NCBI GenBank assembly: GCA_900016865.1
Contig: FIZI01000001.1
Coordinates: 95,028 to 130,184, forward strand
From: an uncultured Clostridia bacterium
Lineage (GTDB): Bacteria > Bacillota > DTU014
Length of the DNA: 35,157 nt
Direction: 5' to 3'
In this document: positions 27,628 to 34,448 of the stretch, in pieces
How the letters are laid out: the number at the start of each line of letters is the position of its first letter
Position numbering within the stretch: the stretch's first letter is position 1
Program-made: the position numbers and the translations under genes
The notes under the pieces: generated by a model
The model's database searches: none
What the model was told of the DNA's origin: nothing
The model's input: the letters and a program-made list of their open reading frames with translations, nothing else

Positions 27628-28698
27628 CTAACGGCCGGCTTTTCTCCTTATGGACTCGATCTGCTCATCAGTAACGGGTCGTTCAAAGCTACGCAATCCA
27701 GCCACTTTAAAGCCATGCTTGTCCGCCAATGCACAGATACGCCGCACTCGCTCTGCGGAGTATTCACGGCCCAAGCTGAAACTCTCGTATGTGCCCTCAA
27801 GTGCGAGGATCATCGTCTCAGCCATGCAGGCAAAGGCGAGACCTGGAGGGAAGCCAAAGTTGAAGTGGAAATCCACATTGTCACCCGGAACCTTTATCAC
27901 ACCGCCTTCGATCACGAGCACATCTTCTCGCTCGTCAGCCACCTTCTTGGAAACGTCTCTCGGCCGAGCTATGTCGAGGACTACCGCTCCCTTCTTAAGG
28001 TCGCCGGGATTTATCAGAGGCTCCGCTGCAGACGACGCGGTAACTACCAGGTCGGATCGTCTCGTAGCTTCCGACACGTCTGTAGTTATAGATGCCTTAA
28101 GTCCACTCTGATCGCATAACTGCTGCTGAAGAGCCTCGAGTCTCGTGCGGTCTCTAGCCACCAGCGTCAGGTCAGAGACCTTGTCCGCGAGAAGGTGGCT
28201 GCAAGCAGTACCCACCGACCCAGTAGCGCCGATCACTGCAACTGAGCAGGTCTGCATGTCAATATCCATCCGGCGGGCGGCGAGCTCAAGAGCTTGAATA
28301 CCCGCACCTGCCGTATAACTGTTGCCCGTGGTGACACCGACAGATACGTGTCGGCTGACTGTAATCCCTGCATCGCCTACTACAGATGTAAATGCGCCCA
28401 GGCCAATGATCTTCGCGCCTAGCTCCTCAGCCTTCTGCGCAGCCCGGATTATCTTCCGAATCACATAGTCCTGATCGAGCTGCAGCATTTGCCGCGCAGT
28501 CAGCGTGCAGCCCACGAACCACCCTTCTGCGGACGCTCCCGTAGCAGACTTTATCCCGGTTATCTTCGACGCCACCACAGGTGGCATCAACTTGAGGCCG
28601 AACTCAATCACCAATGGCGGGAGATACTTAGCAAACGTGTACTTACGTGCGACATCTGATGCGTCTAGCGGGTGAAATATGAAAGCAAACGTATTCAC
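27628..28698 (-). CDS. Acyl-ACP reductase-like NAD(P)-binding protein (AAR-type)
   Basis: Resembles the cyanobacterial long-chain acyl-[acyl carrier protein] reductase, which makes fatty aldehydes. 356 residues against about 340. Seen: GLGAFTSVVGDAGI (AAR-like GGFSSIV), TTGNSYTAGAGIQA at 123-136 (AAR TTGNTHTA), the Rossmann loop SVAVIGATGSVGTACSHLL at about 152-170, LIEGG-type strand VIEGGVIKVPG, and FACMAETMILALEG with Cys 291 aligning with the AAR active-site Cys in FACFAE. GTG 28698 with AGGAGG 7 nt upstream. The substrate is unproven; such proteins outside cyanobacteria often get the label shikimate dehydrogenase. Third gene of a cassette with a quinate-DH-like protein and an HTH regulator. 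No aldehyde deformylating oxygenase is here, as expected for an anaerobe. Confidence 0.75.
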   Translation of the reverse strand: MNTFAFIFHPLDASDVARKYTFAKYLPPLVIEFGLKLMPPVVASKITGIKSATGASAEGWFVGCTLTARQMLQLDQDYVIRKIIRAAQKAEELGAKIIGLGAFTSVVGDAGITVSRHVSVGVTTGNSYTAGAGIQALELAARRMDIDMQTCSVAVIGATGSVGTACSHLLADKVSDLTLVARDRTRLEALQQQLCDQSGLKASITTDVSEATRRSDLVVTASSAAEPLINPGDLKKGAVVLDIARPRDVSKKVADEREDVLVIEGGVIKVPGDNVDFHFNFGFPPGLAFACMAETMILALEGTYESFSLGREYSAERVRRICALADKHGFKVAGLRSFERPVTDEQIESIRRKAGR

Positions 28699-28758: not shown

Positions 28759-29664
28759 CTAGAACGACAGCACTCTCGGCTTGAAATCTGCCCTATCAAG
28801 TACATCCTCAAGCTGCGAGAAGGTCAACGTCTTTGGGTCAAGGCCCGAGGCAAGCACTATAGCCGCCTCAAGGACGTTGGTTCCAAACGACCTCCCATCA
28901 AACTCCGGGGTCGTGGTTATCAGCATACGCGCACCCCGTCTGCGCAGCTCAAGAACATCATCATGTGTCAGAGTGTTCGATATCACAGTCTTCCCGGCCA
29001 TGTCGTCCGGCATGTGCTTTCTGATGTAGTGCCAGTCACCTGCCACAATGTCCGCCCATTCGAAATAGCGGGCTTTCGTGTTGGATGACGACTGGACATC
29101 TTGGTCCTTGCCGGTGGGATATAGCCAACTGAACGGAAATTTGGTCACCAGCGGCATGAAAGCTAAACCTAGTGCGTTTAGGACCTTCAAGCTGTAGAGC
29201 GGTATCGGAACTCCAAGTGCAAATATGAGGTCCCCATACAACACCTTCTTGGAAATAGACTCGAGTGCCTGGGCAATACCCGGACGGTCGGTGGCGGCGG
29301 GCACAAGCACGTTGCTCGATGCGAAGTCCACAATATTCTGCCTGTTGAGGTCAAGGATCACGCGCCGCTCCCAGGTGTTCTTGAGGTAGGATCCATCAAA
29401 GACAGGAGTCTGCCTGGCTGCAGACACTATCTTAAAGGCATCGCGAATCGGATACCGCCTTCCGGCAGCAAACAGGTAAAGATCGATACCGCCCAACCCG
29501 AATGCATCGACCTTGCCGTCGAGTTCGGAGATCTTGCGCATCATCTTCTGGGTATCCCCGTCGCATCCGATCCTCTCGAACACGAACTCGTGGCCGAGAA
29601 TGGTGGCTGTGACGGTTTTGTCCCTTCTTGATGAGCCCAGGCTAACACTGACGATTCTCTTCAA
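28759..29664 (-). CDS. Conserved protein of the type auto-labelled quinate 5-dehydrogenase
   Basis: 301 residues from TTG 29664 behind GGGGGG. I recall similar Clostridial proteins carrying the automatic name quinate 5-dehydrogenase, but I see no quinate-specific residues and no clear GxGxxG nucleotide loop, so I do not claim that activity. Seen: an N-terminal beta segment VSVSLGSSRRDKTVTATILG, a Gly-rich AFGLGGIDLYLFAAGRRYPI, a hydrophobic stretch DLIFALGVPIPLYSLKVLNALGLAFMPLVTKFPFSWLYP that could sit at the membrane or bind lipid, and a C-terminal GKTVISNTLTHDDVLELRRRG with MLITTTPEFDGRSFGTNVLEA. Between the HTH regulator (15 bp) and the AAR-like reductase (60 bp), so it probably works with both. 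Confidence 0.7.
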   Translation of the reverse strand: MKRIVSVSLGSSRRDKTVTATILGHEFVFERIGCDGDTQKMMRKISELDGKVDAFGLGGIDLYLFAAGRRYPIRDAFKIVSAARQTPVFDGSYLKNTWERRVILDLNRQNIVDFASSNVLVPAATDRPGIAQALESISKKVLYGDLIFALGVPIPLYSLKVLNALGLAFMPLVTKFPFSWLYPTGKDQDVQSSSNTKARYFEWADIVAGDWHYIRKHMPDDMAGKTVISNTLTHDDVLELRRRGARMLITTTPEFDGRSFGTNVLEAAIVLASGLDPKTLTFSQLEDVLDRADFKPRVLSF

Positions 29665-32825: not shown

Positions 32826-33761
32826 CTACGGATAGCGCCTTATCGCGTCTGGAACTGGACACACACCGCTGCAACGCTCGCACCCGCCGCAACTGGGGTC
32901 GATTCTGAACCTGCCACCCTGTTCACAGATAAGCCCCTCAGGGCAGGCTTCTGCACACTTGCCGCAGTTTGTGCAAGCGGCCGTTATGAACAGGCTCCGG
33001 AAGATCGACGCGATCCGACTGTACAGAGTCTCACTGCCGCTCTCCATCTTCAGGTTGTCGATCGCTTCTTCATATGTCAGTTCCTCGCCCTGCAACCGCG
33101 ACTTAACATACTTGTGGTGAGTAGCGTACAAGAACAACTCTCCAACAGAATGGTCGGGGAACTTCCAAAGCAAGTCCTCCCGGGCTATGGCACGAGTGAC
33201 GGGTTGGTAAATACTAGAGTACCATCTGGCTGCAGCGCTCCTCAGGTCTATCTTGACTCCCTCTTGTTTCTCCAGTTCACCTTTGTAAAGCTGTATATAG
33301 TGAAGAAGCAGAGGGTACATGCCAATCTCGCCCAACTCTATGTCAGTCAGGCCCGTTAGAAACTCAAATCTCGAGCGCTCGCGCCAGAGTGAACTCTCGC
33401 TATCGTCGCCACTTGGAAGGTACTCGATCACGTGTGCGTCGATGAACTCCTGGCCAGTGCGTTTGGCAGCAGCTACTCTGTGATTCCCGTCGACCACATA
33501 GTAGTACTGCCCTGCCTTGTATACATGGATTGGCGGAAGGGGAACCCCCTTCGCCATCAGCTTGATTATCCTGTCCAACCTTTCGGATTGATGATGGCTG
33601 TCCGCGTTCTTTACACGAAACTCGGAGTCAAAATCCTGCCACCGGTTCAGACTTCCAATGATCCGATTGACAGGTATCGTCATCACACTGAGATCTCTTC
33701 TCTCGTCTAGGCCGTGTCTCTCAACTACTTCATCGAAGCTGGCTAAATCGCGGTTTGGCAT
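32826..33761 (-). CDS. ParB/Srx-fold protein fused to a two-cluster ferredoxin
   Basis: 311 residues. Seen: residues about 25-115 carry a ParB/sulfiredoxin-like domain (VPLPPIHVYKAGQYYYVVDG followed by NHRVAAAKRTG, the NHR box at about 91-100). Residues about 130-240 are a helical region (LTGLTDIELGEIGMYPLLLH, ARWYSSIYQPVTRAI, FPDHSVGELFLYATHHKYV) that resembles the region next to ParB domains in DUF4032-type proteins. Residues 263-301 are a bacterial 2[4Fe-4S] ferredoxin: CTNCGKCAEACP and CGGCERCSGVCP, both C-x2-C-x2-C-x3-CP. ATG 33761 is preferred over the upstream GTG on ribosome-site spacing. The role is unknown; I infer a redox-sensing or redox-driven nucleotide/nuclease enzyme. Upstream of rubredoxin on the same strand. 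Confidence 0.75.
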   Translation of the reverse strand: MPNRDLASFDEVVERHGLDERRDLSVMTIPVNRIIGSLNRWQDFDSEFRVKNADSHHQSERLDRIIKLMAKGVPLPPIHVYKAGQYYYVVDGNHRVAAAKRTGQEFIDAHVIEYLPSGDDSESSLWRERSRFEFLTGLTDIELGEIGMYPLLLHYIQLYKGELEKQEGVKIDLRSAAARWYSSIYQPVTRAIAREDLLWKFPDHSVGELFLYATHHKYVKSRLQGEELTYEEAIDNLKMESGSETLYSRIASIFRSLFITAACTNCGKCAEACPEGLICEQGGRFRIDPSCGGCERCSGVCPVPDAIRRYP

Positions 33762-33815
33762 GCAGGTCACCCATCCTTTTTGTCTGCGGTCCAGTCAGCC
33801 TTGAAGTCAATAGCG

Positions 33816-34448
33816 TTAGCAGTGCCGATACTGATCGCCGCGGTCTCTTTCGCTCGGCCCTTCTTCGTAGTCGAACATGTAGTAGCCGCTACAGTTGATC
33901 ACCCATGTATCTTCAAGTCGCTGCACTCTCTTGAGTCCGCGCCTGTAGTTCATGTGCACGTGACCGTGCAGGAAATACTTCGGACGAAAGCGCTTGATGA
34001 GATCCCGAAAAACAGCGAATCCCCGGTGACATACATCCGGTCCGTCCTGACATCCCTTTACAGGAGCGTGCGCGATAACGATGTCCACCCCGGAGTTGAG
34101 CCACAACCTGGGATACAGTTTCCACACTCTCCATTTCATCTGCCACTCGGTATACTGCAGAGGCCCGCCGCCATACCACATGCTTCCTCCGAAGCCTGCG
34201 ATGGAGATACCTTTGTACTTAACGATTTTGCAGTCGATGTCTTCTCCTCCAACGTTCTCGTCCCGCCCTGTGTCGTGGTTCCCGCGAACGTAGTACATAG
34301 GCGCAAGAAACGCCCCCATGAGGTAAGCCCGATACGCCGGATCGAGGTCTCCGCAACCAATGATCAGATCGATCTTTGGAAAGCGGTTGACATCAAATTC
34401 ATCATATAGCTGCGGCACTCTCTCGTCTGCTACAGCCAGAATCCTCAC
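33816..34448 (-). CDS. Metallophosphoesterase (calcineurin-like)
   Basis: Two-metal phosphoesterase, 210 residues from GTG 34448 behind GAGGTGATC. Seen: motif I position VRILAVADERVPQLYDEF, then GCGDLDPAYRAY, VRGNHDTGRDE, VIAHAPVKGC and FLHGHVHMNYRRG. The usual DxH of motif I is DER, a pattern I recall in a Clostridial subgroup with DxE or DxD there, so activity may still be present. Substrate unknown. Same strand as the ParB-ferredoxin gene, 54 bp before it. Confidence 0.88.
   Translation of the reverse strand: MRILAVADERVPQLYDEFDVNRFPKIDLIIGCGDLDPAYRAYLMGAFLAPMYYVRGNHDTGRDENVGGEDIDCKIVKYKGISIAGFGGSMWYGGGPLQYTEWQMKWRVWKLYPRLWLNSGVDIVIAHAPVKGCQDGPDVCHRGFAVFRDLIKRFRPKYFLHGHVHMNYRRGLKRVQRLEDTWVINCSGYYMFDYEEGPSERDRGDQYRHC

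Follow-up and report, generated by a model that had tools for sequence, protein, structure and literature searches.

A gene in a 35,157-nucleotide stretch of DNA from an uncultured Clostridia bacterium (contig FIZI01000001.1, positions 95,028 to 130,184; the whole stretch is called the window here) encodes a protein in which a ParB/Srx-fold domain, a helical middle domain and a 2[4Fe-4S] ferredoxin are fused. The fusion is conserved, a metallophosphoesterase (MPE) gene adjoins and co-occurs with it, its ferredoxin tail forms a series of cysteine loss among relatives, and its C-terminal domain is exchanged for other domains elsewhere. We tentatively favour the reading that the two genes form a nucleotide/phosphate switch whose C-terminal sensor is exchangeable; in this protein the sensor would respond to redox state or iron.

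The open reading frame runs from the ATG at 33761 to the stop at 32826 with no internal stops or frameshifts; an aagga stretch resembling a ribosome-binding site lies 5′ of the ATG, and an in-frame GTG at 33770 offers an alternative start that would add three residues (Table 1). The initial annotation had proposed the fusion and named a frameshift joining two genes as one finding that would refute it. The fusion is carried by one uninterrupted frame, and an artefact of frameshift or gene joining is ruled out, since the same fusion recurs in many other genomes. Among 398 genomes searched in the phylum, 12 full-length relatives of the same layout were found, with identities of 37–46% for the 11 relatives in the full-length alignment and search identities of up to 49% over the first 260 residues; further relatives came from 72 genomes searched across the class. 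The same domain order was thus found repeatedly, in some 30 other species-level genomes, a recurrence that argues against a chance fusion and for a conserved family. A scan of named-genome contigs gave ferredoxin fragments only. A viral or plasmid origin was rejected, the scans of viral contigs having matched only short stretches of the ParB domain, and PADLOC made no case for a defence system, with marginal matches only.

Table 1. Features of the ParB/Srx–ferredoxin locus, in window coordinates
Feature	Coordinates	Strand	Basis
ParB/Srx-fold + DUF4032-like + 2[4Fe-4S] ferredoxin protein, 311 aa	32826..33761	-	ORF, Pfam
ParB/Srx-fold NTP-binding domain, residues about 20-117	33411..33704	-	PHROG, profile, AlphaFold model
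P-motif DGNHR, residues 91-95	33477..33491	-	Alignment of N-terminal domains
Helical middle domain, residues about 121-255, weakly DUF4032-like	32997..33401	-	Pfam
2[4Fe-4S] ferredoxin domain, residues 260-308, eight cluster cysteines	32838..32984	-	Fer4 models
Metallophosphoesterase, calcineurin-like, 210 aa from GTG 34448; ends 54 bases before the ParB/Srx–ferredoxin ATG	33816..34448	-	Pfam

The immediate neighbours are those given by the initial annotation, with the MPE gene upstream and a rubredoxin gene (32699-32535) about 126 bases 3′ of the fusion gene; a GDT1-family gene comes next. Elsewhere the window holds a glycolytic operon and coaX-dusB-greA-lysS, a gene content suggestive of a Bacillota-type chromosome. 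The minus-strand gene at 27628-28698 encodes a relative of long-chain acyl-ACP reductase and of the N-terminal portion of PigE (TIGR04058 at E 1e-40, well short of the cut-off), and no NCBIfam model matched the neighbouring protein at 28759-29664.

The N-terminal domain was assigned by its fold. The window protein alone gave no Pfam ParB match (PF02195), and PHROG ParB-like families matched it (5e-8). When a profile of 17 N-terminal domains was compared with solved structures, sulfiredoxin was the best match (E 0.0013), with SbnI at 0.0014; ParB/Noc and, weakly, SerK structures were also matched. An AlphaFold model built from a shallow alignment had a mean pLDDT of 68.4 over the whole protein, with 10-residue-block means of 89–96 over residues 61–110 and lower values over residues 41–60. 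Structure prediction of this part, recommended at the outset, yielded a model that VIA-align superposed on sulfiredoxin (Z 9.4), SerK (8.7) and SbnI (7.6), with ParB, Noc and KorB also among the fold matches; by identity, SbnI is the closest solved structure (32% over 75 residues). The N-terminal fold with its C motif and GxxR P motif identifies the domain as a ParB/Srx (ParB-CTPase) fold, and the NHR box previously described as intact is indeed present as VDGNHR at residues 90–95, its D91, G92, H94 and R95 being invariant in 17/17 N-terminal domains.

Among proteins with this fold, the free L-serine kinases SbnI and SerK share with the window protein the N-terminal fold, the DGxHR loop and an equivalent of the catalytic Asp58 of SbnI, with which D91 aligns. 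According to PMC9641203, which cites this result, Asp58 and Glu20 of SbnI are both required for serine kinase activity. The C-terminal domains differ, and the likeness is less clear at the catalytic Glu (Glu20 in SbnI, Glu30 in SerK): no Glu of the window protein is clearly aligned with Glu20, and the region instead holds GS[VL]xR and a family-specific insertion, within which Asp43 and Asp45 are nearly invariant. To our knowledge, neither an MPE partner nor an Fe–S tail is part of the SbnI/SerK systems. Sulfiredoxin shares the fold and a GxHR-type phosphate loop, and its catalytic Cys sits in GCHR; this position is Asn or His in 17/17 N-terminal domains. The window protein differs from it further in having extra domains and in lying in a bacterial operon with an MPE gene, and an identity as sulfiredoxin is ruled out because the catalytic Cys is absent.

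The canonical ParB/Noc proteins, which are CTPase clamps, have the N-terminal CTPase fold in common with the window protein, whereas the latter has no recognised helix-turn-helix (HTH) or dimerisation domain, no ParA-binding motif and no parA neighbour. An LGxGL-type ParA-binding motif was not found at its N-terminus, and no HTH was matched by Pfam, the middle domain model being of modest confidence. The canonical ParB box is of the GERR type. With DGNHR in its place, and with PF02195, the ParA-binding motif and a parA neighbour all missing, an identity as a ParB of the ParABS kind is ruled out. Because the structural matches are SbnI/SerK/Srx-like, the box is DGNHR and D91 is conserved, the predicted domain appears closer to the ATP-using branch of the fold, which it resembles more than canonical ParB. 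The nucleotide specificity of the ParB fold is not predictable from sequence or from AlphaFold3 (PMC12704722).

The middle domain, at first described only as helical, did prove helical; it is not featureless, being weakly DUF4032-like. The window protein scored 22.3–23.2 bits against DUF4032 (PF13224), for which the gathering cut-off is 23.8, and one relative (L047) passed this cut-off with 28.2 bits; the match covers the C-terminal half of the Pfam model. AlphaFold modelled the domain with modest confidence and without a clear structural match, and the comparison with solved structures gave nothing below E 1, which we do not take as evidence of a new fold. It is in this domain that the window protein weakly resembles DUF4032 proteins, themselves an uncharacterised family, and the ferredoxin tail is an addition in the window protein.

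In this tail, several Fer4 models match residues 260–308, and both halves of the CxxCxxCxxxCP...CxxCxxCxxxCP pattern are complete (Cys 263, 266, 269 and 273, and Cys 291, 294, 297 and 301), bearing out the earlier count of eight cluster cysteines; Cys279 is one further cysteine. The modelled part superposes on clostridial ferredoxins by VIA-align with Z about 5 and 40–44% identity, and the domain has the predicted ligands for two [4Fe-4S] clusters. The eight-cysteine pattern is kept across three families, in eight distinct full-length sequences (the window protein, five of family f8 and two of f96). A reduced tail, consisting of one Cys, some 15–20 residues and then a three-Cys motif, occurs in 23 distinct sequences. 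Of the cysteines in clostridial ferredoxins, the fourth of motif I and the first three of motif II hold cluster II, and this is exactly the ligand set that the 23 reduced sequences keep; in the f55 members checked (n=5), the four ligand cysteines are the only cysteines of the protein. One four-cysteine form (L092) has the altered spacing CxxxxCxxC. One member has no cysteines and keeps the hairpin as GLIxDEDGLVxV (family hairpin GLIxxEDGxxxI); its gene is cut off at the contig start, but its C-terminal tail is complete. In a tree from which distant members without ferredoxin were left out, their long branches having distorted an earlier tree, the eight- and four-cysteine sets lie on opposite sides of one branch (support 92/97), and the zero-cysteine member is nested among the four-cysteine sequences. 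On the simplest reading of these sequences, cluster I would have been lost first and then cluster II, with the hairpin retained.

This series from eight to four to zero cysteines points to the ferredoxin as a tunable accessory module. The domain had been taken to imply either electron transfer or iron–sulfur sensing. As a conserved function, two-cluster electron transfer does not stand, because one clade keeps the ligands of cluster II only and one member has none of the ligands; the domain more likely serves in sensing or plays a structural part. The same series bears on the idea of a redox enzyme in which the ParB/Srx domain would hold a substrate and the ferredoxin would supply that substrate with electrons, for sulfiredoxin-like repair or ATP-coupled reduction, with rubredoxin as the redox partner. 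Although the complete eight-cysteine ferredoxin of the window protein, the rank of sulfiredoxin as best fold match and the adjoining rubredoxin gene would suit such an enzyme, the sulfiredoxin Cys position is occupied by Asn or His throughout, the four- and zero-cysteine relatives keep a tail without two clusters, and the rubredoxin neighbour is not conserved; we therefore consider a redox enzyme unlikely. It is similarly improbable that the tail cysteines hold a metal, as Fe–S or zinc, for structural reasons only and act neither as sensor nor as electron carrier: the four-cysteine forms would allow a single tetrahedral metal, the spacing in L092 is altered and the zero-cysteine member retains its hairpin, yet a purely structural role does not require perfect 2[4Fe-4S] patterns across three families.

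The constant companion of the fusion gene is the MPE gene. Of the two neighbours pointed out initially, only the metallophosphoesterase holds as a partner, and rubredoxin was rejected as a functional partner because it is not a conserved neighbour in the relatives. Wherever the contig covers the upstream side of a full-length ferredoxin-type locus, the MPE gene immediately precedes the fusion gene in the same orientation, with a gap of −4 to 65 bases; the other neighbours (nth, PBP, Sir2 and a solute-binding protein) are lineage-specific. MPE was present in 23 of the 24 genomes that carry a ParB/Srx member, against 4 of the 30 that lack one (Fisher 7e-10), a value that overstates independence because the 54 genomes are related and were chosen for presence or absence of a ParB/Srx member. 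In three of the four exception genomes (L159, L160 and L161), MPE adjoins nth and the intervening ParB–ferredoxin gene is missing, apparently through precise losses of that gene. The MPE matches Pfam Metallophos and keeps the GNHD and GHxH metal motifs; in motif I (D-x-H) the Asp is kept and the His is replaced in 12/12 aligned members, a replacement that leaves its activity unproven.

The only PDB matches of the MPE profile were RNA lariat debranching enzymes (E 5e-5), and in the four-cysteine clade the locus is adjoined by nth. Both observations fit a regulator or clamp that works without phosphotransfer, in which the nucleoside triphosphate (NTP) would alter the oligomeric state or DNA/RNA binding as in ParB/Noc/VirB, the Fe–S site would be the redox input and the MPE would act on nucleic acid or a signalling nucleotide. 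The ParB, Noc and KorB structures among the fold matches agree with such a role, and ParB-fold fusions that bind CTP or ATP are common (PMC12704722). This explanation is possible but doubtful, since a recognisable HTH or dimerisation domain, a parA neighbour and a PF02195 match are all absent, and since the DGxHR box matches that of SbnI and not the GERR type of canonical ParB.

Members of this MPE family are likewise paired with ParB/Srx proteins of other C-termini in Actinomycetota, Fusobacteriota and Clostridia. In L057 and L058, the ParB/Srx protein lacks a ferredoxin and the MPE gene lies downstream, overlapping it; MPE adjoins a ParB/Srx protein without ferredoxin in Tsukamurella (L059) and a 562-residue form with a long C-terminal extension in Cetobacterium (L060). 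In addition, MPE adjoins fusions of ParB/Srx to a Bmp/PnrA-type ligand-binding domain in L136-L138, Collinsella (L131), Subdoligranulum (L132) and L139, the last in divergent orientation. These proteins are of ~640 residues (Pfam match to the Bmp/PnrA part shown for L034, the same gene as in L136), and that of Collinsella is annotated as an ABC transporter substrate-binding protein. Where read, the Bmp-type relatives have an EGNKR box as against DGNHR, so that the chemistry may differ among branches. By contrast with these pairs, none of the standalone ParB/Srx proteins (L051-L055 and L061; about 120–170 residues) adjoins MPE, which was found elsewhere in four of the five genomes whose standalone ParB/Srx gene encodes about 120 residues.

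Some of these loci lie in sugar contexts. The plasmid MPE–ParB/Srx pairs come after genes for a sugar ABC transporter in Tsukamurella and after glycogen phosphorylase in Cetobacterium, which may point to a link with carbohydrates; in several genomes, standalone ParB/Srx genes have sugar genes (including FGGY and mannitol dehydrogenase) or arsenic genes nearby, and SBP genes occur in f8. Sugar transport or metabolism as the function, suggestive elsewhere, was set aside as it was not found at the window locus. About 1 kb past one standalone gene, at L051:6280-7698, an N-terminal dicluster ferredoxin is joined to sigma-54 activator-like sequence.

As ParB/Srx and MPE are constant and the C-terminal domain varies, we read the system as a switch with exchangeable inputs, and this pattern leads us to favour an enzyme whose phosphotransfer or switching depends on NTP and which the MPE opposes. 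In such a switch, the ParB/Srx domain would bind a nucleoside triphosphate, most likely ATP, through the DGNHR loop, and would be either a kinase like SerK and SbnI, acting on a small molecule or a protein, or a switch driven by NTP. The MPE would remove the phosphoryl group or cleave the product, so that the two together would determine how much of one phosphorylated species is present. Coupling of the catalytic domain to the C-terminal sensor may fall to the DUF4032-like helical domain, and the state of the ferredoxin clusters (redox, oxygen or iron supply) would tune the switch. Phosphotransfer need not be common to all branches, given the EGNKR box of the Bmp type. More speculatively, the proteins could together make up an undescribed family, with a constant core of ParB/Srx NTP enzyme and dedicated MPE that controls one phosphorylated metabolite or protein under exchangeable C-terminal sensors, namely a ferredoxin with two [4Fe-4S] clusters or a single one, responding to redox or iron, in some Bacillota-like lineages, and Bmp/PnrA in Clostridia and Coriobacteria.

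Recognition of the ParB/Srx fold as a general module for NTP binding is recent (PMC12704722), and the window protein belongs among the ParB-fold fusion proteins, an already known kind. The proteins surveyed in PMC12704722 share with it this general kind, a ParB fold fused to other domains; the main text of the survey mentions no Fer4, iron–sulfur or DUF4032, and an MPE pairing was not seen there. In the open-access literature, we found no paper on this fusion or on the MPE pair, nor one naming DUF4032, and no characterised function, in agreement with the initial annotation, which knew of none. Should the pair prove to be a kinase/phosphatase-like switch, several phyla would share a simple signalling unit of which we found no description. 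The family links the ParB/Srx fold to iron–sulfur chemistry in a conserved manner, and the natural series of eight, four and zero cysteines, together with the exchange of ferredoxin for a ligand-binding domain, makes a sensor role testable by comparison. The closely paired phosphoesterase provides a concrete handle on the role of the fold outside chromosome segregation.
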